Shown here in pieces: positions 45,200 to 63,488 of a stretch of 64,000 nt of DNA (position 1 is the stretch's first letter; every line of letters begins with the position of its first letter). The DNA comes from an uncultured bacterium (GTDB lineage Bacteria; Cyanobacteriota; Vampirovibrionia; Gastranaerophilales; Gastranaerophilaceae): positions 1-64,000 of the forward strand of contig CADBFN010000002.1 of the NCBI GenBank assembly GCA_902794035.1. The letters run 5' to 3'. Below the pieces are notes generated by a model that made no database searches, was not told the origin of the DNA, and saw only the letters and a program-made list of their open reading frames with translations. The position numbers and the translations under genes were made by a program.

Positions 45200-45271
45200 T
45201 CCTCAGTAGCTCAATGGCGGAGCATTCGACTGTTAATCGAAGGGTTGCTGGTTCGAGTCCAGCCTGGGGAG
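45200..45271 (+). tRNA. tRNA-Asn (GUU)
   Basis: A 72-nt cloverleaf: acceptor TCCTCAG/CTGGGGA (one T-G pair), D-arm AGCTC...GGAGC, anticodon arm TTCGA-CTGTTAA-TCGAA (anticodon GTT), T-arm GCTGG-TTCGAGT-CCAGC, discriminator G. The CCA is not encoded. A T-run follows directly. Accessory genes begin just downstream, so this may be the integration site. Confidence 0.95.
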
Positions 45272-45749: not shown

Positions 45750-46601
45750 TCAACAAATTGCGCATTCGGGTATTATAGATTTTGAAGCAAAAAACATTAT
45801 TTCCGTACCTTTTTTATTTCTACCTTCAGATGCAGAGTATGAAATATTGAATTGCCTAATTTTATCTTCTTTTACAAATTGATATAAATCTACAATCTCA
45901 GGAACATTATCGTAACTAACAATCCACTTGCCCTTTAACTTGCGTACGCAATTAGCGATTCTGGCATGATCTCCTGACTTATAATGATTTGTATATAACT
46001 GATTACCCTTTCTAAAATAGGGAGGATCTAGATACAATAGGCATTTTTTAAAAGTTTTTTCGTTTTCTTCTAATAATTCAATCGTATCTTTATTATATAA
46101 CTTTATATATTCTTTAAACTCAGCGATTTTTCTTATTCTTCTTATCAAGTCTTCTTTATTAAATCTTGCGTCAATTTTCCACTTTCCTGTTTGGTTAATT
46201 CCACCTATAGGACCGCCTTTTATCACACCTGAGAAGTTACATCTATTGAGGTAGAACGCTGCAAAACCGATTTCCAAATTAGTATACATATCTTGATTTT
46301 TATAAATACTTTTTTGTTTTCTCCAGGTAGAGATATTTATTGGTGTGTTTTCTATTTTTTGAATAAACTGTTCAGTATAGTTTAGTATTGAGTCCCAAAA
46401 ATAATATATTCCATTGTCTTTATCATTTATCCATACTTCTTTTACATAACCTTCAATCAGAAGAGTTAACGCTAATTCTGATCCTCCAGCATATGGTTCA
46501 ACATACACAGGTAATTTGTCAAAATTTGCTTTAACAAATTGTTTCATAAACTTTGCTATTTTACCTTTGCCTCCAGGATATCTTAAAGGTGAGTATCTCA
46601 T
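45750..46601 (-). CDS. Dam-like (D12 class) N6-adenine DNA methyltransferase
   Basis: The 283-residue enzyme starts RYSPLRYPGGKGKIAKF (motif X), has VEPYAGGSELALTLL (motif I) near residue 33, and LDPPYFRKGNQLY with catalytic DPPY at 192-195 (motif IV). This is the D12/Dam class, which methylates A in short sites such as GATC. The ATG at 46601 lies 1 bp after the stop of the ParB-like gene, with AAAGGA upstream. It is the last gene of the minus-strand AAA/TOPRIM-ParB-Dam cassette. No cognate restriction enzyme of the usual kind is adjacent. Confidence 0.9.
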   Translation of the reverse strand: MRYSPLRYPGGKGKIAKFMKQFVKANFDKLPVYVEPYAGGSELALTLLIEGYVKEVWINDKDNGIYYFWDSILNYTEQFIQKIENTPINISTWRKQKSIYKNQDMYTNLEIGFAAFYLNRCNFSGVIKGGPIGGINQTGKWKIDARFNKEDLIRRIRKIAEFKEYIKLYNKDTIELLEENEKTFKKCLLYLDPPYFRKGNQLYTNHYKSGDHARIANCVRKLKGKWIVSYDNVPEIVDLYQFVKEDKIRQFNISYSASEGRNKKGTEIMFFASKSIIPECAIC

Positions 46602-46602
46602 A

Positions 46603-48069
46603 TTAACACCATATCCTTTCAAATAATGGACGAATATTATCCCAAAATACTTTTAAGGAACTCTCGTCTGGGCTGAATTTAGAATTATGAACATATTGGT
46701 TTAATGCTTCTATTTTTACAGGAGATTTTTCATTATCGATAGTTGTTTTAATTGAATTTAGTTCCTTATCAGATAATTTCCCTTTATTATGCAGATCTTG
46801 AGCAACACATATGATTCTTGCTCTTAATTTAAATTTATTAGGATCTTTTCTTTTTTCATCATATCCAGTTATATTATTATCTCCATATGCGTCTACGGTA
46901 AATTCAAGGAAAATTCTTGTCATTATGGAAAACGATTCTTTTTGATTGTTATCAGATAAATCTTTCATCTCAAGATAAACATCATTAATTCTTGATTTTG
47001 GAATTTTTAATTTAAAACTTGTAGGGAAAAGAGTTATTCGATCTAATAACGATTTATTCTCTTTAATTTTGAGTTTATACGAATTTTCTTCTATTGTTTT
47101 ATCTTTTGTTTCACTGGTAGCAATTATTTTTTCATTCTGGACAGATTTTTCAGTTTCAAGATCTTCTGTTTTTTCTATTATGGTATCTTCTGTTTTTACA
47201 GAAATTTTATTAGTTTCAATCGAATCAAAAAGATTTGTCTGAGGAGAAATGTATCCGTTTTGTGAAAAAACTTCATCAAAATATCCTTGTATTGTATTTT
47301 TATTAATATGATGTGCAGTAATTGTGTTTAAAGGGTTTAACCATTTTATAAAAGCATCTATTGAATTAGTAAAAACATTCATATCTGATATGTTAATTGA
47401 TAAATTCTTGTTGAAAGAAAAACCCATTCTCATTAATAAATCTTCTCTTCCAAAAAATCTTTCAATTATTGCTGCACGTTTTCCTTCAATTAACAAGTTT
47501 TTAAACTTAGCAGAATGCTCTAAATCAATTTGATTAGTAGCTTCCCATAATTTAAATAGTCTATATACATTTTTATAGTCTTTAATATATTTTAAGTCGG
47601 ATAACTTACCACCTTTATTTAAATATTCTTGTATGGCGGCACCTTGTGCTAACCTAGACCAACTCTTCACTTCTATTTGCGTATGTCTATTAAAAATTTT
47701 TTCGTTCAATGCTTTTACATCGTTATATATAAGACAATTTACAGAATCTACAATAAAAGGTTCAAATTTTGAATCAGAAAGGTATTCTGAAGGTTTAGCT
47801 AAGGCCTTTAATGCTGCAATCCTGCGGTTGCCTTCTTTTACAACATATCTGCCATTTTGTTCTATAACATAACAAAATGAATCTTCAAAAAAATCTTTAT
47901 TCTCATAAATAGATTTAACTATTTCTAAAGCATTTTCATTTTTTAATAAATAATTTATTATATCATTTTGGGAATGAGAATCATTATAAAGCATTAAAAA
48001 ACGTGGATTTTGTGTATCCAAATCCAAAAGCGAAATATTAATTTTTTCAGTCTTATAAGCTTTTACCAT
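46603..48069 (-). CDS. ParB-like N-terminal-domain protein
   Basis: The 488-residue protein has an N-terminal ParB/sulfiredoxin-like domain: ISLLDLDTQNPRF (start of the ParB strand pattern), then VVKEGNRRIAALKAL near residue 75, the nucleotide-binding/nuclease-type loop of the family. The middle and C-terminal regions, with Lys/Glu-rich linkers around 290-340, are not recognised. It is sandwiched between the AAA/TOPRIM gene and the Dam gene, with a 64-bp gap upstream. No clear SD; TAAATT lies 6 nt before the ATG. Its role could be CTP-dependent DNA clamp or nuclease, but neither is proven. Confidence 0.7.
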   Translation of the reverse strand: MVKAYKTEKINISLLDLDTQNPRFLMLYNDSHSQNDIINYLLKNENALEIVKSIYENKDFFEDSFCYVIEQNGRYVVKEGNRRIAALKALAKPSEYLSDSKFEPFIVDSVNCLIYNDVKALNEKIFNRHTQIEVKSWSRLAQGAAIQEYLNKGGKLSDLKYIKDYKNVYRLFKLWEATNQIDLEHSAKFKNLLIEGKRAAIIERFFGREDLLMRMGFSFNKNLSINISDMNVFTNSIDAFIKWLNPLNTITAHHINKNTIQGYFDEVFSQNGYISPQTNLFDSIETNKISVKTEDTIIEKTEDLETEKSVQNEKIIATSETKDKTIEENSYKLKIKENKSLLDRITLFPTSFKLKIPKSRINDVYLEMKDLSDNNQKESFSIMTRIFLEFTVDAYGDNNITGYDEKRKDPNKFKLRARIICVAQDLHNKGKLSDKELNSIKTTIDNEKSPVKIEALNQYVHNSKFSPDESSLKVFWDNIRPLFERIWC

Positions 48070-48133
48070 ACTATAAATTTATCCCATAAAAATGATCTTT
48101 TTTAAATATTATGTGTTCTTATGTTAATATGCA

Positions 48134-49804
48134 TTATAATGTGATTTGTGGTAAACCCAAACGAGCATTCGCTTGATTTAGACATGCCAAGAAATTTGCT
48201 TTAAACTCATTCTTTATCTCGCTTGGTAAATCTCTGCAATACTGTGTTATACATTGCTTAAATATTTTCTCATCAAGTTTAGACCATTTTTTGCAACTTC
48301 TTATATCTGCACTCTTTATGTTGTCTATTGAAGGAGGATTTATTCGACACTCTTGTACTAAATCCTGTTTAATTTTATCTTGCAATATACCTATTTTGGT
48401 AAAAATTGGACTATTGGGCTCTAATTCTAATAAATATATAAGAATGCGCTTTTCTATCGCATAATAATCAGGATCTGGTAATCTAGTAAATAATGTTTTA
48501 TCTTCAATCCCTTCAACTTCGTCATCTTTTACGTCCCCATCCAATATAACAAAAGAATTGCTTTGTTTTATAACAAGTGGAAAATTTTCACATAAATTTA
48601 TCAAATGATGTTTTGAAGTCCCATTGTTAACTTCATCTTCATCGAGATTATGTTCTATTTTTATTAACCCACAAATTTTTTGTCCGAGAAGAGATTTAAG
48701 CATATGTTTGGCAATTTTATCCTCGCAATACACCGTTGCTTTATGTTTTTCTGTTATATCTTCTGGTTTTGAAAGGGTTAATTCCTGATATGCCAAAGAA
48801 TATTCAGGATTTGATATTATTGCATAATTTTTATCACTGCCTGCTTGTGAATAACTAATAAAATTAATAACAATCCCATTCTCTTCTAATTCTTTACCTT
48901 TATTAAGGTATATATTTTGAATAATATGTAGAGAATGCGTTGTAAGAACAACTTGAACATCATTGTCCTGAGCCCATTTATACAAATAATTAATTATATT
49001 TACTTGTGCCGATGGATGCAAACTTGCTTCAATTTCATCAATGCACAATATCCCACCATTTCCAGCACGCTCAAAAGCTACTAATTTATTAAAAATTGAG
49101 CCTATATTATCTTCTCCCGAGGAAATAGAATTAAAATCATATGTTGCTTTTTCGCCAGTAGGACCAAAGGTTTTCTTTTTCTTATCATCAGATACGGCTA
49201 AAAATTTTTCATGGTTTGACGATACAAAAACATATCCATAAAACTTTATAAGTTCTTGTTGTTCTTCATTTGTCAACGAAATATTTTCTTTTTCATTTGC
49301 ACTAGTTTCAACTATTGGATTTAAACGTCCTAAATTATGGAAGGATGTATTTAAAATAAAATTACCATCACCTTTGCCATGACCAGAAACAACAATTCTA
49401 TGCCTATCGCCAACTACATCAATATTTACAGTTTCTTTTATTTTTTCGTTTTTAGTTGAGGTAAAGCAAACATTATAACTATATTCATCATCATATTTTT
49501 TCGATAATTTAAATACATCACCTAAGTTTGTTTTTAATGGAATACCAAAAGCATCTTTAGCGTCATTAGAAAATGGATGCGCAATTAATCCCATTAGAGT
49601 AGTTTTCATTGTTCCATTTTTGCCGGATATGATTGTTAAGTGTTTACCTAATTTTATTTCTCTACCAGATAAACTTCTAAATTTTTCAATCTCGATTTTA
49701 TCAATTTTTGATATTGGAATATCTTTATTACTTTCATAGCCATAATGAGCTCGATTATGATATTCTTGCGTATCATTTTCTATAATTTGAGTTTCCTGCG
49801 GCAC
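48134..49804 (-). CDS. AAA ATPase with C-terminal TOPRIM-like domain (OLD/PARIS-type)
   Basis: About 556 residues. The N-terminal SMC/AAA_15-like ATPase has Walker A GKNGTMKTT near residues 61-69, the ABC-signature-like ISSGEDN, Walker B ILCIDEIEASLHP and the switch histidine in LTTHSLH. The C-terminal part has the TOPRIM pattern YCEDKIAKHML and VILDGDVKDDE (Glu then DxD). This resembles OLD nucleases and the AriA/AriB parts of PARIS anti-phage systems, here in a single chain. I prefer the GTG at 49804 (GGAGG SD, 6 nt) over the ATG at 49837. It leads the minus-strand cassette. Confidence 0.82.
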   Translation of the reverse strand: MPQETQIIENDTQEYHNRAHYGYESNKDIPISKIDKIEIEKFRSLSGREIKLGKHLTIISGKNGTMKTTLMGLIAHPFSNDAKDAFGIPLKTNLGDVFKLSKKYDDEYSYNVCFTSTKNEKIKETVNIDVVGDRHRIVVSGHGKGDGNFILNTSFHNLGRLNPIVETSANEKENISLTNEEQQELIKFYGYVFVSSNHEKFLAVSDDKKKKTFGPTGEKATYDFNSISSGEDNIGSIFNKLVAFERAGNGGILCIDEIEASLHPSAQVNIINYLYKWAQDNDVQVVLTTHSLHIIQNIYLNKGKELEENGIVINFISYSQAGSDKNYAIISNPEYSLAYQELTLSKPEDITEKHKATVYCEDKIAKHMLKSLLGQKICGLIKIEHNLDEDEVNNGTSKHHLINLCENFPLVIKQSNSFVILDGDVKDDEVEGIEDKTLFTRLPDPDYYAIEKRILIYLLELEPNSPIFTKIGILQDKIKQDLVQECRINPPSIDNIKSADIRSCKKWSKLDEKIFKQCITQYCRDLPSEIKNEFKANFLACLNQANARLGLPQITL

Positions 49805-49987
49805 TATAAACCTCCATGACACATTGTTAATCCCCATAATATTATATCATGCTAATAAATATGAATTATAATATTACACATCCTTGTAGTTTTTAATTTG
49901 TCCGTTTTTGACACGTTATTCTTGTATGATACATACAGGAACTGTTAGTATTTTTATGTTAGAATAACTAAAAAAAGAGAGAACAAA

Positions 49988-52393
49988 ATGAAACCAATTG
50001 ATGACATTGAAGAACAAGAAAAAAATGAAGAAACAACCAAATTAAACTATATTACACCGGCATTAAAGAAAAAATGGTGTAATGAAGGTGATAAAATTGT
50101 CATGGAATATTCAAGAAATGACTTTGGTTTAGATGTCAGCGGTTATTATTTTACAGATGGAAGAATTAAAGTAAAAGAAGATGGAAGTGTCGAAAGAGGC
50201 AAAAAAAATAAAGTAGATTATTTATTGCTCTGTAAAGGTAATTATCCATTAGCTCTTGTCGAAGCAAAAGGATACGATCATGATATAAACGATGGTGTTA
50301 GCCAAGCACTTAAGTACGCAAGACTTTTAGATGTTCCATTTGCATATACATCAAATGGAAAATTATTTCATGAAGAAGATATTAAAATGGGAACAAATAG
50401 GGAGTTTGCACTAGAAGATTTCCCAACTTCAGATGAATTATGGAATAGATATGTAAAAAATGAAAATTTAACACAAGAACAACAAAAAATAATTTTAAGT
50501 CCATATTATACTTTAGGAAATAGAAAGCCAAGATATTACCAACGAATTGCAGTTAATAGGGTAATCAAAGCAATTGCAGAAGGTAAAAATAGAGAATTAC
50601 TTGTTATGGCAACAGGGACAGGTAAAACATTTGTCGCTATGCAAATTATTTACAGATTGCATAAAATGGGATTAAAGAAAAAAATATTATTCCTTGTTGA
50701 TAGAAATGCTTTAGCCGATCAAACAATGACTGATTTTGTCGCGTTTAATCAAAGCTCAATGGTTAAGATTGGTGAAAAATATTCTTTAAAAAGACAGGAA
50801 GACGTAAAGATGCTTTCTGCATATGAAATATTTATATCACTTTATACTCAATTAAAAGGTGGAAAATCAGATGATGAAGAAAGCGAACTTTATTTTGAAT
50901 CAGATGATACAAAAAATTATTATAAAAATTTACCACCAGATTTCTTTGATTTAATAGTTGTAGATGAATGTCATAGAGGCTCTTTGAATGAAGAAAAAAG
51001 TTGGCATGAAATATTAGAATATTTTGGAAGTGCAACTCAGATAGGTTTAACTGCTACTCCAAAAGAAACTTCTTTTGGCTCTAATATTACATATTTTGGA
51101 GATCCTATTTTTACATATTCTTTACAACAAGGAATAGAAGATGGCTTTCTTGCTCCATACACAGTTATTGCATATGAACTTGACGTGGATAGAGATGGTT
51201 ATCAACCAAAACATGGCGAAAAAGATATTTATGGAAAACCGCTTGAAGATAGGCTTTATACTGCAAAAGAATTTGATAGAAAGTTAATTATAGACGATAG
51301 AAGAGAGTTAGTTGCACAAAAAATAACAGAATATTTGAAAGAAACAGATAGATTTGCAAAAACAATCGTATTTTGTGAAACAGAAGAACACGCTGGTGGA
51401 ATGGTAAATGCGTTAAAAAATTTGAATAACGATTTGGTTGCAGAAGATAGCAGGTACATAATGCGAATAACAGCCAATGATCAAGAAGGAAAAGATCAGA
51501 TTAAAAATTTTTCATCTAAATCACAAAAATATCCGGTAATAGCAGTTACAAGTAAACTACTATCAACAGGAGTTGATACAAAAACGGTTGAACTTATTGT
51601 TCTTGATAAATCCATTGGTTCAATGACCGAATTTAAACAAACTATTGGTAGAGGTACACGTATCGAAGCGCACTATGAAGTTGATGGTAAAGAAAAATCT
51701 AAAACTCACTTCACAATAATGGATTTCAGAGGAAATTATAGAAATTTTGATGACCCTGATTTTGATGGCACGGTTGAAGTAATTGATGGCAATTCTGCTC
51801 CATTACCCAAAAAAGGTGAAACTAAAACAAAAACAGAAAGATTTAGAATCAAAGGGGTTGAAGTAGAAGTCGCCGGTAAAATAGTAAGATTTTTGAACGA
51901 TGATTTAACAACAAATAAAGAACAAACTATTGAAGATTTTGCAAAAAATAATATAAATGAAGCTTATAAAACTTATGATGAGTTTAGATCTGCTTGGTTT
52001 AATTCAACAAATAAAACTCAATTTATAAACGAAATTTTAGTAGATCAAAAAATTATACAATTCCTAAAAAAGCAAATCGGTGAAAATGCAGATTGGTATG
52101 ATCTTATAGCATATTATGGATACGGTATTGAAATTCCAGATAAAAAAGAAAGAATTGAAAAATGCCGTCAATTTATTGGAACATTAAATGAAGAGCAGCA
52201 AAAAATCGTTACTATTCTTTTGAAATGTTATCTTGATACCGATTTTTATGACTTAAAAACAGTTGCAATATTTGAAGTAGATGCTTTTAGAAGTAATCAT
52301 TACACTAAAAAATCAGCAGTAATGGCTATTGGCGGTAAAGAAGAATTCAAAAGAATAATCAATAAAATTGAAGAAATTATGTTTAAGGAGTAA
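49988..52393 (+). CDS. hsdR: Type I restriction enzyme, HsdR subunit
   Basis: The 801-residue motor/nuclease has an N-terminal PD-(D/E)xK domain (D77, then E92-x-K94 in LVEAKGYD), the Walker A ATGTGKT (208-214), the DEAD-box-type VVDECHRG, and helicase motifs such as GLTATP and QTIGRGTR. It would translocate DNA and cut distant from an unmethylated site. SD GAGAGA, with TGT-TAGAAT upstream. HsdMS follows after 3 bp. The divergent AAA/TOPRIM gene shares the 183-bp intergenic region. Confidence 0.93.
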   Translation: MKPIDDIEEQEKNEETTKLNYITPALKKKWCNEGDKIVMEYSRNDFGLDVSGYYFTDGRIKVKEDGSVERGKKNKVDYLLLCKGNYPLALVEAKGYDHDINDGVSQALKYARLLDVPFAYTSNGKLFHEEDIKMGTNREFALEDFPTSDELWNRYVKNENLTQEQQKIILSPYYTLGNRKPRYYQRIAVNRVIKAIAEGKNRELLVMATGTGKTFVAMQIIYRLHKMGLKKKILFLVDRNALADQTMTDFVAFNQSSMVKIGEKYSLKRQEDVKMLSAYEIFISLYTQLKGGKSDDEESELYFESDDTKNYYKNLPPDFFDLIVVDECHRGSLNEEKSWHEILEYFGSATQIGLTATPKETSFGSNITYFGDPIFTYSLQQGIEDGFLAPYTVIAYELDVDRDGYQPKHGEKDIYGKPLEDRLYTAKEFDRKLIIDDRRELVAQKITEYLKETDRFAKTIVFCETEEHAGGMVNALKNLNNDLVAEDSRYIMRITANDQEGKDQIKNFSSKSQKYPVIAVTSKLLSTGVDTKTVELIVLDKSIGSMTEFKQTIGRGTRIEAHYEVDGKEKSKTHFTIMDFRGNYRNFDDPDFDGTVEVIDGNSAPLPKKGETKTKTERFRIKGVEVEVAGKIVRFLNDDLTTNKEQTIEDFAKNNINEAYKTYDEFRSAWFNSTNKTQFINEILVDQKIIQFLKKQIGENADWYDLIAYYGYGIEIPDKKERIEKCRQFIGTLNEEQQKIVTILLKCYLDTDFYDLKTVAIFEVDAFRSNHYTKKSAVMAIGGKEEFKRIINKIEEIMFKE

Positions 52394-52396
52394 TTG

Positions 52397-54703
52397 ATGA
52401 ACGGTACGGCTCTAATAAAAAAGACAACTAAAATAATGTATGGTGATGCTGGGGTAAGCGGTACAGCACAATATATGTCGCAACTGATTTGGATATTATT
52501 CCTTAAAGTTTTTGATTATAAAGAAGAAGAATGGGAATTAAATGATGATTATGAACCAGTTATTCCTGAACCATTTCGATTTAGAGACTGGGCGGCTCCA
52601 AAAGACATAAAAAAAAGATTATCTGGAGAAGGTTTAGTCACTTTTGTTAATGATAAATTATTTCCTTTTTTAAAGGGTGAAACCATTGAATATAAAGGAA
52701 AGAACTATACATTTGATTCCGATGGAAATAATAGTAAGGCGAATACCGTAAAATTATTTATGAATGAAACGTCAAATTATATGAAAGATGGGGTAAAACT
52801 TCGCCAAGTAATTGATGAAATAGCAGATATAGATTTTGACGAATACCGAGATAGACACGAATTTAATGAATTTTATGAAACCTTTTTGCAAGAATTACAA
52901 AAAGGTGGTAAGGCAACGGGTGAATTTTATACGCCTCGTGCATTAACAAGATTTATAACTGAACATATTGCTCCAAAACTTGGAGAAAAAATTGCAGATT
53001 TTGCATGTGGTACAGGCGGATTCTTGGTTGAAGCAATTACGTTATTACAAAAACAAGTTAAAACAGCGGAAGATACTAAAACAATACAAGATTCCATATA
53101 TGGAATTGAGTGGAAACAATTGCCATATATGTTGTCATTAACGAATATGTTACTCCACGATATAGATAATCCCAAAATTAATCACGGTGACGGTTTAGCA
53201 AAAAATGTATTAGACCTTGATAAAAATGATTACTACGACTGTATCTTAATGAATCCGCCTTTCGGTGGTGATTTTAATAAACAAGATTTAAAAAATTTCC
53301 CTGACGATTTGGCATCCGCAGAATCAGCAGATATGTTTTTAGTTAGAATTATTTATTCTTTAAAAGAGAATGGAAGATGTGGTTTGGTTCTCCCCGATTC
53401 ATTATTCATAAGCGATAATAATAACACTAAAAAGGATAGTTTAAAGAGAAAATTACTTGCAGAATGCAATTTGCACACCATTATTAGATTACCAAGTTCA
53501 GTATTTGCTCCTTATGCATCTATTCCAACGAACTTACTATTCTTTGATAAATCCGGTCCAACTAAAGAAATTTGGTATTATCGTATGGATATGCCGAAAG
53601 GAATTAAGCATTTTAATAAAACACACCCCATTACTATTGAAGATATGGATTGTGTTGAACAGTGGTGGAATAATCGTCAAGAAATTAAAGATGAAAAAGA
53701 AGATGAATCTATGACCGAAACATGGAAATCTAAAAAATATACTATCCAGGAAATTGAAAATAGAAATTATAATTTAGATTTGTGTAGTTATCCTAATGAA
53801 GAAAAAATTGTGCTTTCGCCAGACGAAACAATAAAACAATATAAAGAATATAGAACTTCTATTGAAAATACTCTTAATAAACAATTAGAAAATATCATTA
53901 ACTTATTAAAAGGTGACGAAACATTAACATCTGCTAATATGCACAATGAAAAAAAAGAAAAGTTTGAAGAATTAAATAAAAATTTCAAAAAAGAAATAGG
54001 ACAATCAATTATTCAGAGTGCCTTGCAAGGAGAGTTATCAAAACAATTAGAAACAGATTCAAATGTTGAAGATTATATTAAATTGTCAAAAAGTATAAAA
54101 AATGAAAGAAAAGAAAAAAATCTTCTAAATAATACTAAAACCACCCAAGAAGTTATAGATGAAGGGCTTTTTGATATTCCTGACACATGGAGATGGGTTA
54201 GATTTGGCGATATTGTTGATTTCAGAATGGGAAAAACTCCGGACAAAACGGACATTAAGTCCTATGGCAATGACTATCCCTGGGTAAAAATTGGTGATAT
54301 AGAAAATGATGGAACAGTAACTTCAACATCAGTAAAAATTTCTGAATATGGATTTAAAAATACTTTTTCGGAAAAAATTTCACCAAAAGGTACTCTTATA
54401 ATGAGTTTTAAATTGACAATAGGAAAAGTCGCAATACTTGATATTGATGCGTTACACAATGAAGCAATTATATCAATATTTCCTTTTGTAGAAAAAGACA
54501 ATATAACAAGAGATTATTTATTTAAAGTATTACCTTATATATCGCAATCAGGTGATTTTAAATCAGCAATAAAAGGAAAAACTTTAAATGCAAATAGTTT
54601 AACTAATTTATTAGTTCCGCTTCCACCAATAGAAGAACAGAAAAGAATTGTTGAAAAATTAGATAAAATAATGCCATTAGTCAATGATTTAGTGGTTCAG
54701 TAA
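52397..54703 (+). CDS. hsdM: Type I modification HsdM fused to a single-TRD HsdS
   Basis: The 768-residue protein joins two parts. Residues 1 to about 430 are HsdM: N-terminal helical domain, SAM site DFACGTGGF (201-209), catalytic NPPF (286-289). After a coiled-coil-like linker (about 480-590), one target-recognition domain follows (IPDTWRWVRFGDIVDFRMGKTPDKTDI onward, LPPIEEQKRIVEKLDKI at the end). Normal HsdS has two TRDs; here there is one, so two fused chains may combine to read a symmetric bipartite site. The ATG at 52397 follows AAGGAG. Confidence 0.9.
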   Translation: MNGTALIKKTTKIMYGDAGVSGTAQYMSQLIWILFLKVFDYKEEEWELNDDYEPVIPEPFRFRDWAAPKDIKKRLSGEGLVTFVNDKLFPFLKGETIEYKGKNYTFDSDGNNSKANTVKLFMNETSNYMKDGVKLRQVIDEIADIDFDEYRDRHEFNEFYETFLQELQKGGKATGEFYTPRALTRFITEHIAPKLGEKIADFACGTGGFLVEAITLLQKQVKTAEDTKTIQDSIYGIEWKQLPYMLSLTNMLLHDIDNPKINHGDGLAKNVLDLDKNDYYDCILMNPPFGGDFNKQDLKNFPDDLASAESADMFLVRIIYSLKENGRCGLVLPDSLFISDNNNTKKDSLKRKLLAECNLHTIIRLPSSVFAPYASIPTNLLFFDKSGPTKEIWYYRMDMPKGIKHFNKTHPITIEDMDCVEQWWNNRQEIKDEKEDESMTETWKSKKYTIQEIENRNYNLDLCSYPNEEKIVLSPDETIKQYKEYRTSIENTLNKQLENIINLLKGDETLTSANMHNEKKEKFEELNKNFKKEIGQSIIQSALQGELSKQLETDSNVEDYIKLSKSIKNERKEKNLLNNTKTTQEVIDEGLFDIPDTWRWVRFGDIVDFRMGKTPDKTDIKSYGNDYPWVKIGDIENDGTVTSTSVKISEYGFKNTFSEKISPKGTLIMSFKLTIGKVAILDIDALHNEAIISIFPFVEKDNITRDYLFKVLPYISQSGDFKSAIKGKTLNANSLTNLLVPLPPIEEQKRIVEKLDKIMPLVNDLVVQ

Positions 54704-55195: not shown

Positions 55196-55288
55196 TTATA
55201 TTTGTGTTTATATGTAAAAATTTAAAATAAAACTGGCTTTTCTACATACTTCCAGGTATTGTGTTTTCTGATATTAGGAGGATTAAGT

Positions 55289-55522
55289 ATGGAAAAAGTC
55301 GGATTGAATATCACTCAAAAAGAGTTCAAGCAATTAAGTAAGTGGTCGAAGAATATTTATAACACAGCAGTTGTAATTGATTATTTTGTTGCAAATCAAC
55401 CGGAGATTGAAGAATGTTATAATCTTGCGCCAGTTGTTAAGCACCTGCGAAATGATGCTGATGTTTTAAATGCATTCTTTATAGACCACGAAAAAGAAGT
55501 TGAAAATTTAAATGCCGTTTAA
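55289..55522 (+). CDS. Hypothetical small protein (77 aa)
   Basis: Not recognised. The ATG at 55289 follows an AGGAGG SD; the earlier start at 55259 is rejected. The 77-residue helical, acidic protein (WSKNIYNTAVVIDYF, then LRNDADVLNAFFIDHEKEVENL) may be an accessory of the restriction module or of the phage-like region. Function unknown. Confidence 0.55.
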   Translation: MEKVGLNITQKEFKQLSKWSKNIYNTAVVIDYFVANQPEIEECYNLAPVVKHLRNDADVLNAFFIDHEKEVENLNAV

Positions 55523-55529
55523 AAGGTGT

Positions 55530-55985
55530 TTAATCGGTGTTCAAATCGTGTTCACAAATTTCTTCGTGTGTTATGCCGAGAATTTGTTCCTCAATTTCTC
55601 GTATAACATCAGGTGTTAAACCTTTCGGCTTTTCCTCTTTAGTTTTTTGTTTTTCGTTTAACACTTCATCCTCATAAGATTTAACCGGACCAATCAATTT
55701 CAGCATTTTAGTAACGGCATAATATCTTGCAGGCTCGACTTTACCGTTCTTCTCCATATCCTTTTCGATAGAATTTATCAAACTTCGGGTAAAATCATAT
55801 AAATCCGAGTGCAAGGTTGTTTTTGTGCGAAGATATTCCGCTCTTTTGGTTTCCCAATTATCAGACTTTTTCCATCGGCGGAGCGTTCTTTCGTTCAAAT
55901 GAAGCTTCATCGCGATATCTTCTAACGACATAAAATTTTCAGCATAAAGTTTAAAGGCATCTTGTGCCAATGTTTGTTTTTTCAT
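55530..55985 (-). CDS. HTH protein resembling a phage terminase small subunit (DUF1804-type)
   Basis: The 151-residue protein has an N-terminal HTH (SLEDIAMKLHLNERTLRRWKKSDNWETKRAEYL) followed by helices and a Lys/Glu-rich middle (DEVLNEKQKTKEEKPKG). This arrangement resembles DUF1804/terminase small subunit proteins of Mu-like phages, which bind DNA to start packaging. The ATG at 55985 follows TGAGG; the ORF can be extended upstream but those codons lack support. A Mu-type transposition module nearby is consistent with a phage origin. Confidence 0.6.
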   Translation of the reverse strand: MKKQTLAQDAFKLYAENFMSLEDIAMKLHLNERTLRRWKKSDNWETKRAEYLRTKTTLHSDLYDFTRSLINSIEKDMEKNGKVEPARYYAVTKMLKLIGPVKSYEDEVLNEKQKTKEEKPKGLTPDVIREIEEQILGITHEEICEHDLNTD

Positions 55986-56145
55986 AACTAACCTCAGGGT
56001 AAATAAAGTTTTGGTACACACAGGATAACTCTGTTTCGCAGAAACATCAAGTCCCAAATGTGTCTGAATGATACGTTTTCTGGATTTTAAGTTGATGTTT
56101 GCTCCTGAAAGAGCGATGAATGGTGTAGCTTGAAAGGAGCATACA

Positions 56146-56358
56146 ATGATTGAAATCGGTAAAAAATACAGATTAAAAAAGCTTAAAGGCTGGTTTGAAA
56201 AAGATAGCGAATATTTTACGGTTGTTTGCTTTGGCGAGCATAATATTGTCGGCTGCGTTGCACCGGATGGCGAAAGATATGTGTTTGATAAAGATTTTTT
56301 GATTGATCCTGAAAAACCTGATGAGATATACGCAGATATTAAAATAACGAAAGGATAA
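56146..56358 (+). CDS. Hypothetical small protein (70 aa)
   Basis: Not recognised. The 70-residue beta-rich protein (IGKKYRLKKLKGWFEKDSEYFTVVCFG, then VAPDGERYVFDKDF) has an AAAGGAG SD and begins a run of three plus-strand small genes. It resembles the next protein in having a DKNGKRY/PDGERY element, so the two could be paralogues. Confidence 0.6.
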   Translation: MIEIGKKYRLKKLKGWFEKDSEYFTVVCFGEHNIVGCVAPDGERYVFDKDFLIDPEKPDEIYADIKITKG

Positions 56359-56361
56359 ATT

Positions 56362-56562
56362 ATGGTTGAAAAAGATTATAAATTATATGGGACAAAGATT
56401 TTAAATCTTAAAACACAAGAAATCGGACTACTGATTTGCTTATGGGAAAACAAGTTTGCCGATAAAACAGTAGATTTTGCAACTTGTGTTGATAAAAACG
56501 GCAAACGCTATAACATAGAGCTTGATAACATTAGAGGGTTTGAAGATGATTTTGAAAAATAA
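56362..56562 (+). CDS. Hypothetical small protein (66 aa)
   Basis: Not recognised. The 66-residue protein (YKLYGTKILNLKTQEIGLLICLWENKF, then VDKNGKRYNIELDNIRGFED) is beta-rich and follows the preceding gene by 3 bp with an AAAGGA SD. It overlaps the next frame by 17 bp. Likely a phage-related small gene. Confidence 0.55.
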   Translation: MVEKDYKLYGTKILNLKTQEIGLLICLWENKFADKTVDFATCVDKNGKRYNIELDNIRGFEDDFEK

Positions 56563-56782
56563 ATTGACTAAAGAAACACTTGATATTCCGTATTCTGAAT
56601 TCAGGATAAAGTTTGCCAAAGAAATTCAGGAGGCGTTTGAAAGTTACCGCAAAACACAATTAAATAAATATTCTTGGAACTTCAAAGATGACAATTCATT
56701 GGAGTTTAATTTTTACTTTGAACTCCATTGGAACTTCAACCATTTTGGAAATAGTAACTGGTACATTGAACGCATTAATTAA
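56546..56782 (+). CDS. Hypothetical small protein (78 aa)
   Basis: Not recognised. I use the ATG at 56546 because AGAGGG lies upstream; the earlier start overlaps the preceding gene more. The 78-residue protein (FAKEIQEAFESYRKTQLNKYSW, then FELHWNFNHFGNSNWY) ends in an aromatic-rich patch. It overlaps the convergent DUF4268 gene by 8 bp. Confidence 0.5.
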   Translation: MILKNKLTKETLDIPYSEFRIKFAKEIQEAFESYRKTQLNKYSWNFKDDNSLEFNFYFELHWNFNHFGNSNWYIERIN

Positions 56783-57704
56783 TATTTATAAATGGGCAAA
56801 AAGCTTTTTTGAAAGCAAGTGTTTTTTCTTCATACCAAAGAAAATCTTTTTCCCAATTTTTATTATCGTATAAATTAAAGTTACTTCGGCTTACTGATAT
56901 TCTACTTGCTTTTTTCCCTTTAAGTTCTTGCCAAAGTAACTCTTCCCCAAAAAGTTTTTCAATTTCTTCTTTGTGACTTGATAATTGATAATAAAATTCT
57001 TTGTTATCCGGAATGTACAGTTCTACACCAATTCGATTTTCTTTTCCTAAAGCAGTTAAACTTATATGAGCTTTTGAAGTTCCGATTGAAACATCATTCC
57101 AATGGTCTGATGAAGGCTTTTGAGGATGTACCAGAGAGCCTTTATTATTTAAAAATTCATTTAACGCAGTCCAAAATTCAAGCAATTTTAATTTTCTTTC
57201 AGTAAGTGCTGAAACAGGAGCTTTCATAATTTTTGCCCATTCATTAGGTTTACTGATTATTTGAAATTTGGGAGCATATGGCGAATCCCCAATTTGCCAC
57301 AATTCCAATTTAATAGCAAAGAAATTGATATTTTCATCTGTGTGTTCGTTTAACCAGTCAATAGCTTGTTTATGTTCATTTCTAACTTCTTTTACTATCC
57401 AAATTATAATTTCTGCATTGTAACCAGATGCATAGGTAATGATTTTACCTAAATGATCGTGATTAGTTGCTTCCAATTGATTTTCTATAACAATTTTTCT
57501 TCCATTAGAATCTTCAGCTAAGACGTCAACATTAAAAGAGCCTACATTTGCTTCTGTTTGGATTAAATTTATATCTACACCAATTTCTTCACTCAATAAG
57601 GCAAGATTTTCTTCTTTTGAAAGCCAACGTGTAAAATCTAAAGCTTCGTGTTTCCAAGCTTCTCTTAAGTCAACTTTCTTTAACTTTCCTAATGTTGCAA
57701 CCAT
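56775..57704 (-). CDS. DUF4268 (PD-(D/E)xK-like) protein
   Basis: The 309-residue protein matches DUF4268: DFTRWLSKEENLALLSEEIGV at the N-terminus, VDVLAEDSNGRKIVIENQLEATNHDHLGKIITYASG (nuclease-like strand pattern with an E-x-Q in place of E-x-K), IIWIVKEVRNEHKQAIDWLN, and a C-terminal domain ending near WEKDFLWYEEK. The family is common near restriction and defence genes. ATG 57704 follows an AAAGGAG SD; the ORF can be extended but lacks a site. Confidence 0.85.
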   Translation of the reverse strand: MVATLGKLKKVDLREAWKHEALDFTRWLSKEENLALLSEEIGVDINLIQTEANVGSFNVDVLAEDSNGRKIVIENQLEATNHDHLGKIITYASGYNAEIIIWIVKEVRNEHKQAIDWLNEHTDENINFFAIKLELWQIGDSPYAPKFQIISKPNEWAKIMKAPVSALTERKLKLLEFWTALNEFLNNKGSLVHPQKPSSDHWNDVSIGTSKAHISLTALGKENRIGVELYIPDNKEFYYQLSSHKEEIEKLFGEELLWQELKGKKASRISVSRSNFNLYDNKNWEKDFLWYEEKTLAFKKAFCPFININ

Positions 57705-57786
57705 ATGCCACTCCTTTAATAATAGATTAATCCTATCATAAAAATTATTTTTATTATATGATGTCCTAAACAAAGGAATAACAAGC

Positions 57787-58206
57787 ATGAATAATCATTT
57801 ACAAGAAATAATTAACAAAATAATTAAAAGTTATGATTCTATTGTACAAAAATCTATAAAGATATTAGTATCTCACCATAACGATCAAGCTATAGTTGCA
57901 GCAATATGCGTTGCGGATGGTGCAGCTCTTTCGATAAAATCACGTACTAAAATCACAGTAGCTCCTGATAACGAAAAAACTTTATTTTCAACTTTAAGAT
58001 TTAAACAAATTATTACTAAAAGTTATTCTGGGAATACACCTATTATTTCAGAAGAACCAGAAATAGATTTAAATTATGCTGCACAATTTTTAGATAATAT
58101 CGATAAAGCTTTAGATAATTTTGATAATTTATTAGAAATTAAAGATAAAATTGATAAAATTTTTACAGACTTAAAATACGAAAAAATATGGCTGAATAGA
58201 TCTTGA
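57787..58206 (+). CDS. Hypothetical protein (139 aa)
   Basis: Not recognised. The 139-residue protein has an N-terminal helix (LQEIINKIIKSYDSIVQKSIKILVS) and C-terminal helices (LDNIDKALDNFDNLLEIKDKIDKIF). SD AAGGAA. It is divergent from the DUF4268 gene across 82 bp and precedes the DUF4186 gene tail-to-tail. Function unknown. Confidence 0.6.
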   Translation: MNNHLQEIINKIIKSYDSIVQKSIKILVSHHNDQAIVAAICVADGAALSIKSRTKITVAPDNEKTLFSTLRFKQIITKSYSGNTPIISEEPEIDLNYAAQFLDNIDKALDNFDNLLEIKDKIDKIFTDLKYEKIWLNRS

Positions 58207-58221
58207 ACATATTTTGAACGG

Positions 58222-58578
58222 TTATAAAACGGGGTTTGAATTAATTTGGCGGTTTATCCATTCCATTATTACTGAAACGAGATATTCTTGTTCGGATTTA
58301 GTTAATTCTCTATGTTGAGGGAATTTATGCCATTTTTCGATACAGCCGCGACAACAGGTGGCGGTTGCGTGTTGAGCAATAAACACGGGATGCCCTCGCA
58401 TTGGTGTTTGCTTGCCATCATTTACAGGTTCTGCCGGAGCAACTCTATCCCGAATAAAATCGCAGGCATGAGAATGAATCGTATCAAGCCCTTTGTCTTT
58501 GATGTATTCAAGCTCTTTTGTCCGAAGCTTAAACCTGCTCCTAAATTTTGATTTTGCTAATTTATCCAAAATGTCCAT
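58222..58578 (-). CDS. DUF4186 protein
   Basis: The 118-residue protein matches the DUF4186 family: KSKFRSRFKL start, LDTIHSHACDFIRDRVAP, PMRGHPVFIAQHATATCCRGCIEKWHKFP with CCRGC and His residues that look like a metal site, and the terminal EYLVSVIMEWINRQ. Function of the family is unknown. It shares a 17-bp intergenic region with the divergent 265-aa gene; both -10 boxes overlap in that space, predicting leaderless transcripts in both directions. Confidence 0.85.
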   Translation of the reverse strand: MDILDKLAKSKFRSRFKLRTKELEYIKDKGLDTIHSHACDFIRDRVAPAEPVNDGKQTPMRGHPVFIAQHATATCCRGCIEKWHKFPQHRELTKSEQEYLVSVIMEWINRQINSNPVL

Positions 58579-58583
58579 AAATT

Positions 58584-58593
58584 TATGATAGCA
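58584..58593. promoter_or_regulatory. Overlapping divergent -10 boxes
   Basis: Plus strand TATGAT (58584-58589) lies 6 nt before the ATG at 58596. Minus strand TGC-TATCAT (58585-58593) lies 6 nt before the ATG at 58578. The two boxes share five bases. Confidence 0.45.
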
Positions 58594-58595
58594 TA

Positions 58596-59393
58596 ATGAT
58601 AATGAGTAAAAATGAAATAAAAGAAACTGAAGAAAAAGAACAAGTCGAAAAGTTTTTCAAAACCAAAGTTGGTCAGGAATGGTACGAAGGACTTGGTGTT
58701 ATTGATTGTGTAAAATCAGAAGCTCCGGATTTTAAAATAAAAACAATAAATGGTGACACTATCGCATTAGAAATAACTAAATTTATAGTAGAAAATAAAA
58801 ATCTTAAATTTTCTCAGGCATTAACCAGAATAGGTAATAAAATTTGCCGAGAAGCAGAAAAGGAATATAATCTTCGCATACATATACTTATTGATAAATA
58901 TGATGAAAGGGAATTTAGCATCCATTTGAAAGACCATTTGGATTATGCTTATAATCCTGGATTTTCAGAATTGCCTGATGCGAAAATACTTAAACAAAAA
59001 ATGCGTGATGTTCTCAAAAATAATATAGAAAAATTGAGACAAGGTTGGCTTGTTCAGGAATGGATTAAAGTTGATAATGAGCATTTTAAAATATCAATGG
59101 ACCCCATTGTGTGTCCTTGGACTGGGAAATATGATTGCCACGTTAATAATGCCGGCATGGTCAAGCAAAATCCCATTGATGAATTACAAACCTGTATTGA
59201 TAAAAAGAATGATAAAATCCAATCCTATAGCAAGGATTGTACTAAATGTTATTTGTTAATAATTGTTCCCAATGCATACAATGCTAATTATTGTTCTTTT
59301 GATAATTCACTATTCGAGCATAAATTTAATTCCAAGTTTGAAAAGATATTTTTATGCGAGGAGAATGGTAAATACGCATATACTTTAAATTAA
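58596..59393 (+). CDS. Putative PD-(D/E)xK-type nuclease-like protein (265 aa)
   Basis: Not firmly recognised. The 265-residue protein has an APDFKIKTINGDTIALEITKF segment near residues 43-65 (D...E-x-T, similar to a restriction-nuclease core but with Thr in the Lys place), EAEKEYNLRIHILIDKY, and a C-terminal LEHKFNSKFEKIFLCEENG-like tail. It is divergent from DUF4186 with a 17-bp gap. The start ATG at 58596 has a -10 box 6 nt upstream; a second ATG is at 58602. Nuclease function is a guess. Confidence 0.55.
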   Translation: MIMSKNEIKETEEKEQVEKFFKTKVGQEWYEGLGVIDCVKSEAPDFKIKTINGDTIALEITKFIVENKNLKFSQALTRIGNKICREAEKEYNLRIHILIDKYDEREFSIHLKDHLDYAYNPGFSELPDAKILKQKMRDVLKNNIEKLRQGWLVQEWIKVDNEHFKISMDPIVCPWTGKYDCHVNNAGMVKQNPIDELQTCIDKKNDKIQSYSKDCTKCYLLIIVPNAYNANYCSFDNSLFEHKFNSKFEKIFLCEENGKYAYTLN

Positions 59394-59396
59394 ACT

Positions 59397-60641
59397 TTAT
59401 ATATGTATCAGCTCATAAATCAAATTCAATTGATCTTCAAAGTTGGGGTTGAGTTCTTTCCATAAAAAGACCGAGAGGTGGTGGTCGAGGTATTTTCGCA
59501 TACTTGCCATAAATTTTTTGCGATAAAGAATATTGTATAATCTGCGTGCTTCTTTGACTTCCTCGGGTTGTTGACGTCGTTGTGGAAGCTTTGTTTTTAG
59601 TGCTTTTTGAGCAATAAAAACTTTGTCACCATAACAATAAATGCATATTGAAACATCATTCATAAAAATTCTGACTTGTGGAATTTGTGGGTCTGTGTCA
59701 AAACGTTCAACTAGTTCCTGATATTGTTTATCAAAGATTTTCGCCCTAATAAATTGATAAAAAGTCTCAGTTGTTGTATTACCCAAATTTGCTATTTTTG
59801 CTGTTTGAGAAGCAGGAATTCCAAAACAGAAGCATTTATAAATAATTTCAATTTGTTCTGTCGTTGCTAAGTTATAGACTTTTGGTAGACGATTTAAATT
59901 TCTGCGGACTTTTGGTTCTTCTTCTCTGTAATCCGGCATGAAATATTTAGGGAATATTCCCATCATACCTTCTGTTTGGTACTTTTTACGTTTGGAATGA
60001 AACGCAGAATATGAAACCTTTAGCTTTGGATTCTTGAGAGGAATTAATTCCAAAAAGCTCCGCAGTTCTCTGCAATTCATACCTTCTGTTAGTTTAAAAA
60101 GTTTCAGGTACCTATAAATAAATTCCTTACCCCTGTCTGAAGCCACAACATACAAACGTTCTTCCTCTTTATTGTGGAAAAGTTTTTTGACTTCTTTATC
60201 CATCGCCCGTCGTTCGGAATCTTCTAAAAAATCGTAGAGTTTTAGGGACGAGCGTTTGATTAAATATTTACCATCCAAGTTAGGTTCCTTATTAGGTTTT
60301 ACAATATAACTTCCTTTAAGACAATTTCTTTTAACGGTTTCTTCTTGAATATTTAAAAGCCGAGCGACCTCGGGTATTGTAAGCCAAATATCTGAATCGC
60401 TGCTTTTGTTTGTGGGGACAAATTTATTCACACGCTTTTTAAAATTCGTATATAAATATTCTGTATTTGATATCTTTTTAATTTGATTCAAAGTTTCTAA
60501 ATCATTGAGTGCTTTTTGAATTGATTTTTCATTTTCTTCAAGCATTGGCAGAATGTCAGGCAGAGTAAATTTATTAAGCCCCTTTGCTATTTTAAGAATT
60601 TTCATTTGTAAGTTCAATTTCTTCTGCGTCAGCATCGTCAT
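59397..60641 (-). CDS. Mu-module accessory protein with Mu-type HTH
   Basis: The 414-residue protein has a winged-helix-like N-terminus (about 10-65) and a Mu-type DNA-binding domain at about 84-135 (DIWLTIPEVARLLNIQEETVKR, then GKYLIKRSSLKLYDFLE), closely resembling the transposase N-terminus. The C-terminal half (MGIFPKYFMPD, then SICIYCYGDKVFIAQKALK) is not recognised. A perfect SD (AAGGAGGTG) lies 7 nt before the ATG, inside the ATPase gene, giving a 50-bp overlap. It may direct the transposase to ends or targets, analogous to TnsD/TniQ, but no homology shows that. Confidence 0.65.
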   Translation of the reverse strand: MTMLTQKKLNLQMKILKIAKGLNKFTLPDILPMLEENEKSIQKALNDLETLNQIKKISNTEYLYTNFKKRVNKFVPTNKSSDSDIWLTIPEVARLLNIQEETVKRNCLKGSYIVKPNKEPNLDGKYLIKRSSLKLYDFLEDSERRAMDKEVKKLFHNKEEERLYVVASDRGKEFIYRYLKLFKLTEGMNCRELRSFLELIPLKNPKLKVSYSAFHSKRKKYQTEGMMGIFPKYFMPDYREEEPKVRRNLNRLPKVYNLATTEQIEIIYKCFCFGIPASQTAKIANLGNTTTETFYQFIRAKIFDKQYQELVERFDTDPQIPQVRIFMNDVSICIYCYGDKVFIAQKALKTKLPQRRQQPEEVKEARRLYNILYRKKFMASMRKYLDHHLSVFLWKELNPNFEDQLNLIYELIHI

Positions 60642-61323
60642 TTTTCAACACCTCCTTCAATGTTATTTCGTCAATTTCTTTTATTCCGTTTGATTTTGCG
60701 ACCTGTTCCGCTTTACTGATAGTTTTTACCAATTGCCTGAATCGATTTGTGCGAGTGTATAAAAGCTTTTTGGCACAATCCGTAAACGGAACTTCTGATA
60801 ATTGATCGATTATTGAAGTTATATCTTGTTTAGAAAATGGCTCGAATTTTATAATTTCCAATAATCTGTCATACAAATGCTTGTGCCGTTGGAGCCTTTT
60901 ATTAGCCGTACCCATTCCGACTAAAACAATAGGGACATTCGTTTTGTCGTGAATATCCCTTAAAGTTTCAACCGCCCGAGAATCAATCGTCAAATAGTCC
61001 GTTTCATCTACAATAATGGTTCTTGGTGTTTTGATTAATTGCGATACAACTTGATTGAAGATATCCGAGAACTTGTTATAAGGAATCTCTCCTAACTCTT
61101 CAACCATCTCTTCCAGTAACCACCTAGCAGACATAAGATTGGCACTCCGGATTAATATGGCATCATTTTGCGCCGCCCACCAGGTAATTGCGTAAGTTTT
61201 ACCGAGCCCCGGTTCGCCATAGATAAGTCCCATTCCTGGCACTCCGTCTTCTCTTTCTCGCAGGCGGTTCATCATTGAGATTAGTTGTTTTACGTTTTTG
61301 GTTTTCACAAAGACCTTTTTCAT
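60592..61323 (-). CDS. AAA ATPase of a Mu/IstB-type transposition module
   Basis: The 243-residue AAA+ protein has Walker A GEPGLGKT (36-43) and Walker B IIVDETDYL with D106-E107, followed by sensor LVGMGTANKRL. It is the MuB/TnsC/IstB type that binds DNA as an ATP-dependent filament and activates the transposase. SD AAAGGAG; the ATG overlaps the transposase stop by one base (TAATG). In Mu-like elements this gene follows the transposase directly, as here. Confidence 0.88.
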   Translation of the reverse strand: MKKVFVKTKNVKQLISMMNRLREREDGVPGMGLIYGEPGLGKTYAITWWAAQNDAILIRSANLMSARWLLEEMVEELGEIPYNKFSDIFNQVVSQLIKTPRTIIVDETDYLTIDSRAVETLRDIHDKTNVPIVLVGMGTANKRLQRHKHLYDRLLEIIKFEPFSKQDITSIIDQLSEVPFTDCAKKLLYTRTNRFRQLVKTISKAEQVAKSNGIKEIDEITLKEVLKNDDADAEEIELTNENS

Positions 61324-63392: not shown

Positions 63393-63470
63393 ACCGTATC
63401 CTTATTTATTATTACAGCTACTGTATGTTAGACTGCTTTCTCTCAAAATGGAAGTGTTTAAGGGGGAAAT

Positions 63471-63488
63471 GTGTCAGAGTGTGTCAGA
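63471..63488 (+). repeat. Two GTGTCAGA copies with 10-bp period
   Basis: GTGTCAGA at 63471 and 63481, exactly one helical turn apart, upstream of the transposase gene. Could bind the transposase or a regulator. Confidence 0.35.

Follow-up and report, generated by a model that had tools for sequence, protein, structure and literature searches.

The question raised by this locus is whether three closely spaced genes of an uncultured Gastranaerophilaceae bacterium (Cyanobacteriota, class Vampirovibrionia) form one anti-phage system, and whether that system already has a name. The genes lie in a stretch of 64,000 nucleotides, here called the window (assembly GCA_902794035.1, contig CADBFN010000002.1, positions 1 to 64,000, forward strand). 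An earlier sequence-only reading had described them as a tight minus-strand cassette of an AAA_15-like ATPase with a C-terminal TOPRIM-like domain, a ParB-like protein and a D12-class adenine methylase, beside a type I system and a tRNA gene, and knew no named defence system of this composition. All three open reading frames (ORFs) were confirmed as intact, in this order:

48134..49837, minus strand: methylase-linked OLD-family ATPase-TOPRIM gene (P0001, 567 amino acids)
46603..48069, minus strand: ParB-like gene, component A of PD-λ-5 (P0002, 488 amino acids)
45750..46601, minus strand: D12 methylase gene, component B of PD-λ-5 (P0003, 283 amino acids)

The gap between the ATPase and ParB-like genes is 64 bp, and the methylase ATG sits 1 bp beyond the ParB stop. 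The ATPase start is likelier to be 49837 than 49804, since the additional N-terminal residues are kept in relatives (L032, L033, L038). The arrangement is not due to chance, because relatives carry the trio again and it has also arisen independently in other phyla and in viruses. We read the cassette as a composite anti-phage system, in which PD-λ-5 would be joined by an OLD protein as second effector and one methylase would protect self from two alternative effectors. We put the probability of this reading at roughly 0.55.

The absence of a named counterpart did not hold for two of the three genes. The PADLOC profile PDLC03998 (PD-Lambda-5_A) matched P0002 over residues 7-487 (profile positions 4-464 of 466, E-value 6e-55), and PDLC04018 (PD-Lambda-5_B) matched P0003 over residues 2-279 (E-value 5e-111). 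Judged by these profile matches, the ParB-like and Dam pair of the window is the named system PD-λ-5, with components A and B in full length, in the order A-B and with the 1-bp gap. The window differs from PD-λ-5 by the OLD-family ATPase-TOPRIM gene before A-B: the PADLOC models for PD-λ-5 bear names for components A and B alone, and no OLD ATPase gene lies alongside the Vibrio and Kosakonia plasmid copies. P0003 is a D12-class N6-adenine DNA methyltransferase, as previously called (Pfam MethyltransfD12, E-value 1e-19); its DPPY motif occupies residues 192-195, and DPPY and PGGK are invariant in eight homologues. According to the original report (Vassallo et al., 2022; PMC9519451), PD-λ-5 came from a functional selection in E. 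coli and affected nine of ten tested phages, and its authors regarded it as an apparently compacted prophage version of a restriction-modification (RM) plus abortive infection system. Phage resistance is demonstrated there for the E. coli system only, and the test host is described as being without the mrr region. Such a host fits an active methylase, a connection that we infer.

For the ATPase, the earlier statement stood. No PADLOC model spans the entire P0001 protein; matches are partial and ATPase-centred, the best being AriA over the ATPase part only, and an E. coli relative gave partial, ATPase-centred matches likewise. P0001 consists of an ABC-type ATPase (approximately residues 43-358; Pfam AAA_15, E-value 1e-19) and a C-terminal TOPRIM/helical part (approximately residues 365-560). 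Residues 43-555 match phrog_3940, a phage family without assigned function (E-value 2e-80), which was matched by all of the 35 aligned homologues. A Pfam TOPRIM match was obtained for none of these 35 proteins, and the TOPRIM call is made because of the fold match to OLD nucleases and residue conservation. In the Foldseek ranking for the P0001 model (mean predicted local distance difference test score, pLDDT, of 81.6), the Thermus OLD nuclease 6P74 came first, followed by retron PtuA and Gabija GajA. The 6P74 alignment covers 595 columns, but with a template modelling (TM) score of 0.28 and a root mean square deviation (rmsd) of 17, and a second aligner (VIA-align) gave P0001 rows limited to the ATPase part. 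Invariant across the 35 homologues are K78, S239-x-G241, D267-E268 (Walker B), H301, E372, D433 and K516; D435 is kept in 34 of them, and position 462 is E or D in all. The spacing of E462 and K516, 54 residues, is the same as that of E508 and K562 in Bp OLD (an equivalence by spacing, without superposition). By modelled fold and predicted catalytic residues, P0001 is an OLD-family protein, and the TOPRIM of OLD/PARIS style that had been proposed holds on the same grounds.

In P0002, Pfam recognised no domain, ParB included, and a ParB-family profile search against PDB sequences gave no match; the predicted ParB-like domain is nevertheless clear in the structural model. The modelled layout is an N-terminal ParB/Srx NTPase-fold domain, a middle helical part, a disordered linker (approximately residues 280-337) and a C-terminal HEPN-like domain (residues 355-488). 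Residues 1-135 match ParB structures with Z-scores of 9-10 and rmsd values of 2.3-3 over approximately 95 residues. Residues 355-488 match the AbiA C-terminus (Z-score 8.6), 2q00 (8.0), and HepT and other HEPN chains (7-8). Z-scores of this size are within reach of helical bundles, but nearly all structural matches of the region are to proteins of HEPN type. The Foldseek E-values are weak. The N-R-R motif (N81-R82-R83), R385 and H461 are invariant in 62 homologues. As to the other features of a chromosome-partition ParB, Pfam recognised neither an HTH nor a dimerisation domain in P0002, and among the neighbours scanned with Pfam there was no ParA gene (parS was not searched for). The proposal that the ParB protein loads on or cuts DNA is not obvious for a protein that models as a ParB/Srx NTPase with a HEPN-like domain. 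The model makes an effector that acts on RNA just as probable as one that cuts DNA.

The partners of the methylase were surveyed with methylase-alignment scans, which gave 80 genomic and 80 viral loci; grouped at 90% identity, these yielded 122 clusters whose flanks could be used. ParB alone was the partner in 76 clusters, the OLD ATPase alone in 28, both in 5 and neither in 13. Under independence, 22 clusters with both effectors would be expected (Fisher p 7e-13, relatedness not corrected), so ParB and OLD ATPase are mainly alternatives. The co-occurrence anticipated for the three genes was found in relatives, other phyla and viruses, and the trio is not the general unit (5 of 122 Dam clusters). 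In the Dam tree, partner labels change 22 times, and the label for both effectors needs 5 changes, at least 4 of them forced by well-supported (starred) branches, in a count that includes the doubtful locus L079. The candidate ATPase of L079 was set aside, as it reached 32 bits only; by eye, an RloB-like protein follows it. The trios were assembled several times, in differing gene orders. Many of the loci with neither effector have another gene pair next to the methylase. By eye, a third partner type accompanies the same Dam subfamily in L065, L081, L085, L109, L113, L114 and L118, where proteins of approximately 650-680 and 450-485 amino acids lie downstream; in several of these loci, an AlbA/Schlafen-like protein lies upstream.

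The linkage was also seen from the effector side. Single-protein scans of the viral contigs with P0001 and P0002 returned no relatives. Among 289 genomes of the window's class, a full-length ParB homologue is present in four (two of them near-copies), and in all four the ATPase is directly upstream and the methylase directly downstream. Ten ATPase homologues were detected in the class: four belong to trios, five precede the methylase directly and have no ParB, and one (L025) lies elsewhere, adjoining a 5-methylcytosine (m5C) methylase and an NgoPII endonuclease. On viral contigs, the methylase lies within 2.2 kb of the ATPase in 48 of 50 assessable clusters, with ParB present too in four of those 48. 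An ATPase gene that lacks a methylase beside it is thus rare, which is what protection of self by methylation would lead one to expect. These neighbourhoods suggest that, as a rule, the OLD protein and a methylase of this kind make up a separate module of two genes. Trios have the order ATPase-ParB-Dam in viral L128 and L208, ParB-ATPase-Dam in Kordia (L103), and ParB-Dam-ATPase in Acetivibrio (L071) and viral L245; they are on mixed strands in L228 and L270. In Vibrio phage ValB1MD-2, the ATPase and methylase genes are accompanied by a ParB gene that is broken into two neighbouring ORFs (L193 6461-8013).

Relatives of the window cassette show exchange and decay of single modules. In L037, the ParB-Dam block has 91% DNA identity to the window, and the ATPase slot holds an OLD ATPase with 27% protein identity; the break falls at the ParB start. 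L038 retains an intact ATPase (72%) and an intact Dam (76%), with only short remnants of ParB between them; these remnants (2200-2436) include the final 58 codons, which share 65% identity with the ParB of L024 (E-value 6e-25). The near relative L032 is 99% identical to the window in the methylase, 95% in the ATPase and 85% in the ParB protein, where the differences lie in the linker and part of the HEPN-like domain. The strongest argument for a methylation-guarded cassette is that a methylase persists where effectors are exchanged, degraded or relocated.

The composite reading stands on the observed order of the genes, their family assignments, their conserved residues and modelled folds, and the recurrent linkage of one effector or the two together to a single methylase subfamily. 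A self/non-self model with Dam as the self-mark, as put forward from the sequence, is plausible and our best inference, and the earlier interpretation is partly supported overall. For the window copy, a role in defence is probable, and its most likely course would be as follows. The methylase would mark host (and prophage) DNA at its motif, and the effectors would be kept off self by this methylation. Incoming unmarked DNA would activate the effectors via their nucleotide-binding domains, the ABC ATPase and the ParB/Srx fold. The TOPRIM site of the OLD protein would then cleave nucleic acid. RNA cleavage by the HEPN-like domain of the ParB protein would probably add a second layer, of abortive type.

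Several points weigh against this reading. No assay of the window cassette, of an OLD-Dam pair or of any trio was found in the literature, and linkage to a methylase is also expected if the effectors guard restriction or methylation. The P-loop of P0001 (GKNGTMKTT, window 49598-49624) has Met at residue 77, before the lysine, in place of the usual Gly, and ATPase activity is therefore not certain; the position is variable, with Ser in several trio relatives and Ser or others in many homologues. The second metal site and catalytic lysine of Bp OLD comprise E404, T506, E508 and K562 (PMC6755086). This class 2 OLD second metal site is incomplete in P0001: the equivalent of E404 is A376, and the equivalent of E508 is E or D among homologues. 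The T506-equivalent position is variable among them. In the HEPN-like domain of P0002, the canonical Rx4-6H motif is missing, as positions 455-457 before H461 are not Arg (consensus counts, 62 homologues), and the invariant R385 lies outside the motif position; an RNase activity of P0002 is therefore suggested by the fold alone. Finally, the loss of ParB in L038 and the replacement of the ATPase in L037 show that the effectors need not act on each other.

The alternatives have to be weighed against the surroundings of the cassette:

45200..45271, plus strand: tRNA-Asn (gtt), 3' of the cassette, context (ARAGORN)
49838..49987, no strand: divergent intergenic region between cassette and hsdR, 150 bp, candidate promoter region of both by position only
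49988..54703, plus strand: EcoAI-type type I RM genes, HsdR and an HsdM-HsdS fusion, in divergent orientation to the cassette (NCBIfam, Pfam)
55287-63486: Mu-like prophage, part
55530-56057, minus strand: terminase-small-like gene
58222-58578, minus strand: DUF4186 gene
60592-61323, minus strand: MuB/TniB-like ATPase
61323-63392, minus strand: MuA-like transposase (PF09299)

The setting beside a type I system and a tRNA gene was thereby located. HsdR matches NCBIfam NF046051 (E-value 1e-247), and the fused HsdM-S matches Pfam N6_Mtase and Methylase_S; this EcoAI-like system is context and outside the cassette. In the intergenic region 49838..49987, consensus promoter-like sites were no more frequent than in shuffled sequence. 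Most cassettes of the window's class adjoin a separate restriction system: type I genes lie beside the window cassette and L024, HsdM beside L038, and the NgoPII RM system beside the L025 ATPase, and the neighbours of L022 and L035 are a MutH/MvaI-type endonuclease with D12 and N6_N4 methylases. The L037 cassette sits within a Mu-like prophage. The same prophage lies next to the window cassette (89% DNA identity) with other genes in the slot: in the window, a DUF4268 protein and a 139-amino-acid ORF occupy it (56751-58240), and in L037 it is taken by the trio.

The restriction systems beside most cassettes of the window's class leave room for a role like that of PARIS. The OLD ATPase, and perhaps the ParB-HEPN-like protein too, would sense phage inhibitors of restriction or methylation and trigger abortive infection, with the methylase as bait or neighbour. 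This is the main rival to the composite reading. AriA of PARIS is one of the matched relatives, and PARIS reacts to Ocr, an anti-restriction protein (PMC12839542). Outside the window's class, however, type I genes were found at 5 of 21 genomic ATPase loci (three of these five being loci with both effectors, one of them doubtful) versus 7 of 49 ParB-only loci, with no clear enrichment. L037 has no adjoining restriction genes within the stretch examined, and the near-constant D12 methylase partner is foreign to PARIS. We consider such a guard function unlikely.

A simple juxtaposition, in which an OLD gene landed upstream of PD-λ-5 and the two have no joint function, would agree with the effectors being mostly alternatives across bacteria (5 trios versus 22 expected) and with the differing gene order among trios. 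It is improbable, given that the OLD gene is itself tied to the same Dam subfamily in nearly all cases, that the four full-length ParB genes of the 289 genomes all have OLD upstream, and that the slot in L037 was refilled; a shared methylase would itself be a joint function. Still less credible is an accessory module of prophages without a role in defence, with the methylase shielding the phage from host restriction and the ATPase and ParB acting in lysogeny or superinfection exclusion. The L037 cassette lies inside a Mu-like prophage, many relatives are on viral contigs and an E. coli copy is in a P2 prophage, all of which speaks for such a module, but defence genes are usually prophage-borne. 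Moreover, in PMC9519451 PD-λ-5 emerged from a selection for defence, and the P2 site is a hotspot of defence genes.

How does P0001 relate to the known OLD classes? These comprise single genes (class 1), Gabija GajA (class 2), retron effectors (class 3), PARIS (class 4) and archaeal Cran1 (class 5; PMC10568477, PMC12796447). P0001 shares with OLD nucleases an ABC-type ATPase followed by a TOPRIM part with E, DxD, E/D and K residues, and it is set apart from these five classes by its partner gene: the partner is a D12 adenine methylase, whereas the five classes either lack a partner or have a UvrD-like helicase, a reverse transcriptase, a TOPRIM protein encoded separately or a membrane protein in that place. 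Unlike in Gabija, no GajB-type UvrD-like helicase is adjacent, the neighbours of P0001 being ParB-like and HsdR (SF2 type). As regards retron type I-B, Pfam found no reverse transcriptase among the neighbours (a non-coding RNA was not sought). PARIS likewise links an OLD-type ATPase to TOPRIM, and the cassettes of the window's class likewise lie near restriction genes; P0001, however, has TOPRIM in the same protein, no AriB match was found among its neighbours, and PARIS does not include a methylase. A D12 methylase beside a predicted nuclease also recalls type II RM, but the cassette is without a classical restriction endonuclease and its predicted effectors are NTPase-linked.

No paper naming an OLD-Dam pair was found among open papers, and 11 OLD clades (U1-U11 of PMC12796447) are still unnamed. 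We tentatively suggest, at somewhat less than even odds, that the pair is a distinct, widespread and unnamed methylase-linked OLD defence class, in which a methylase of PD-λ-5_B type controls an ABC-TOPRIM nuclease through methylation, and that this pair and PD-λ-5 can stand in for each other as effector modules on a single methylation-guarded platform, with the window trio as its two-effector form. If so, one methylase subfamily would be the self-mark for at least two unrelated, freely swapping effectors, and defence systems that are listed separately at present would turn out to be versions of the same platform. The OLD nucleases would then include a methylation-linked class whose off-switch can be tested. 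No E. coli match was found for the ParB-Dam pair of L153. The Dam-OLD pair is present in 15 of 5426 E. coli genomes, and the copy examined (L195 9001-11561; strain TUM2820, NZ_CP135688.1 1451782-1454342) belongs to a P2 prophage, where it is flanked by the replication endonuclease gene and the portal gene, a site described as a defence hotspot in PMC9519451. The occurrence of this copy in P2 prophages makes testing practical in laboratory strains.

Two minor observations concern the wider surroundings. A tRNA-bounded island was considered and found unsupported, a second copy of the tRNA-Asn 3' end being absent from the window. On the same contig, at approximately 85200-96000 (G000:C2; L197 1194-12083), a BREX type 1-like run with PglZ-, PglX-, BrxC-, BrxB- and BrxA-like proteins was noticed by eye.

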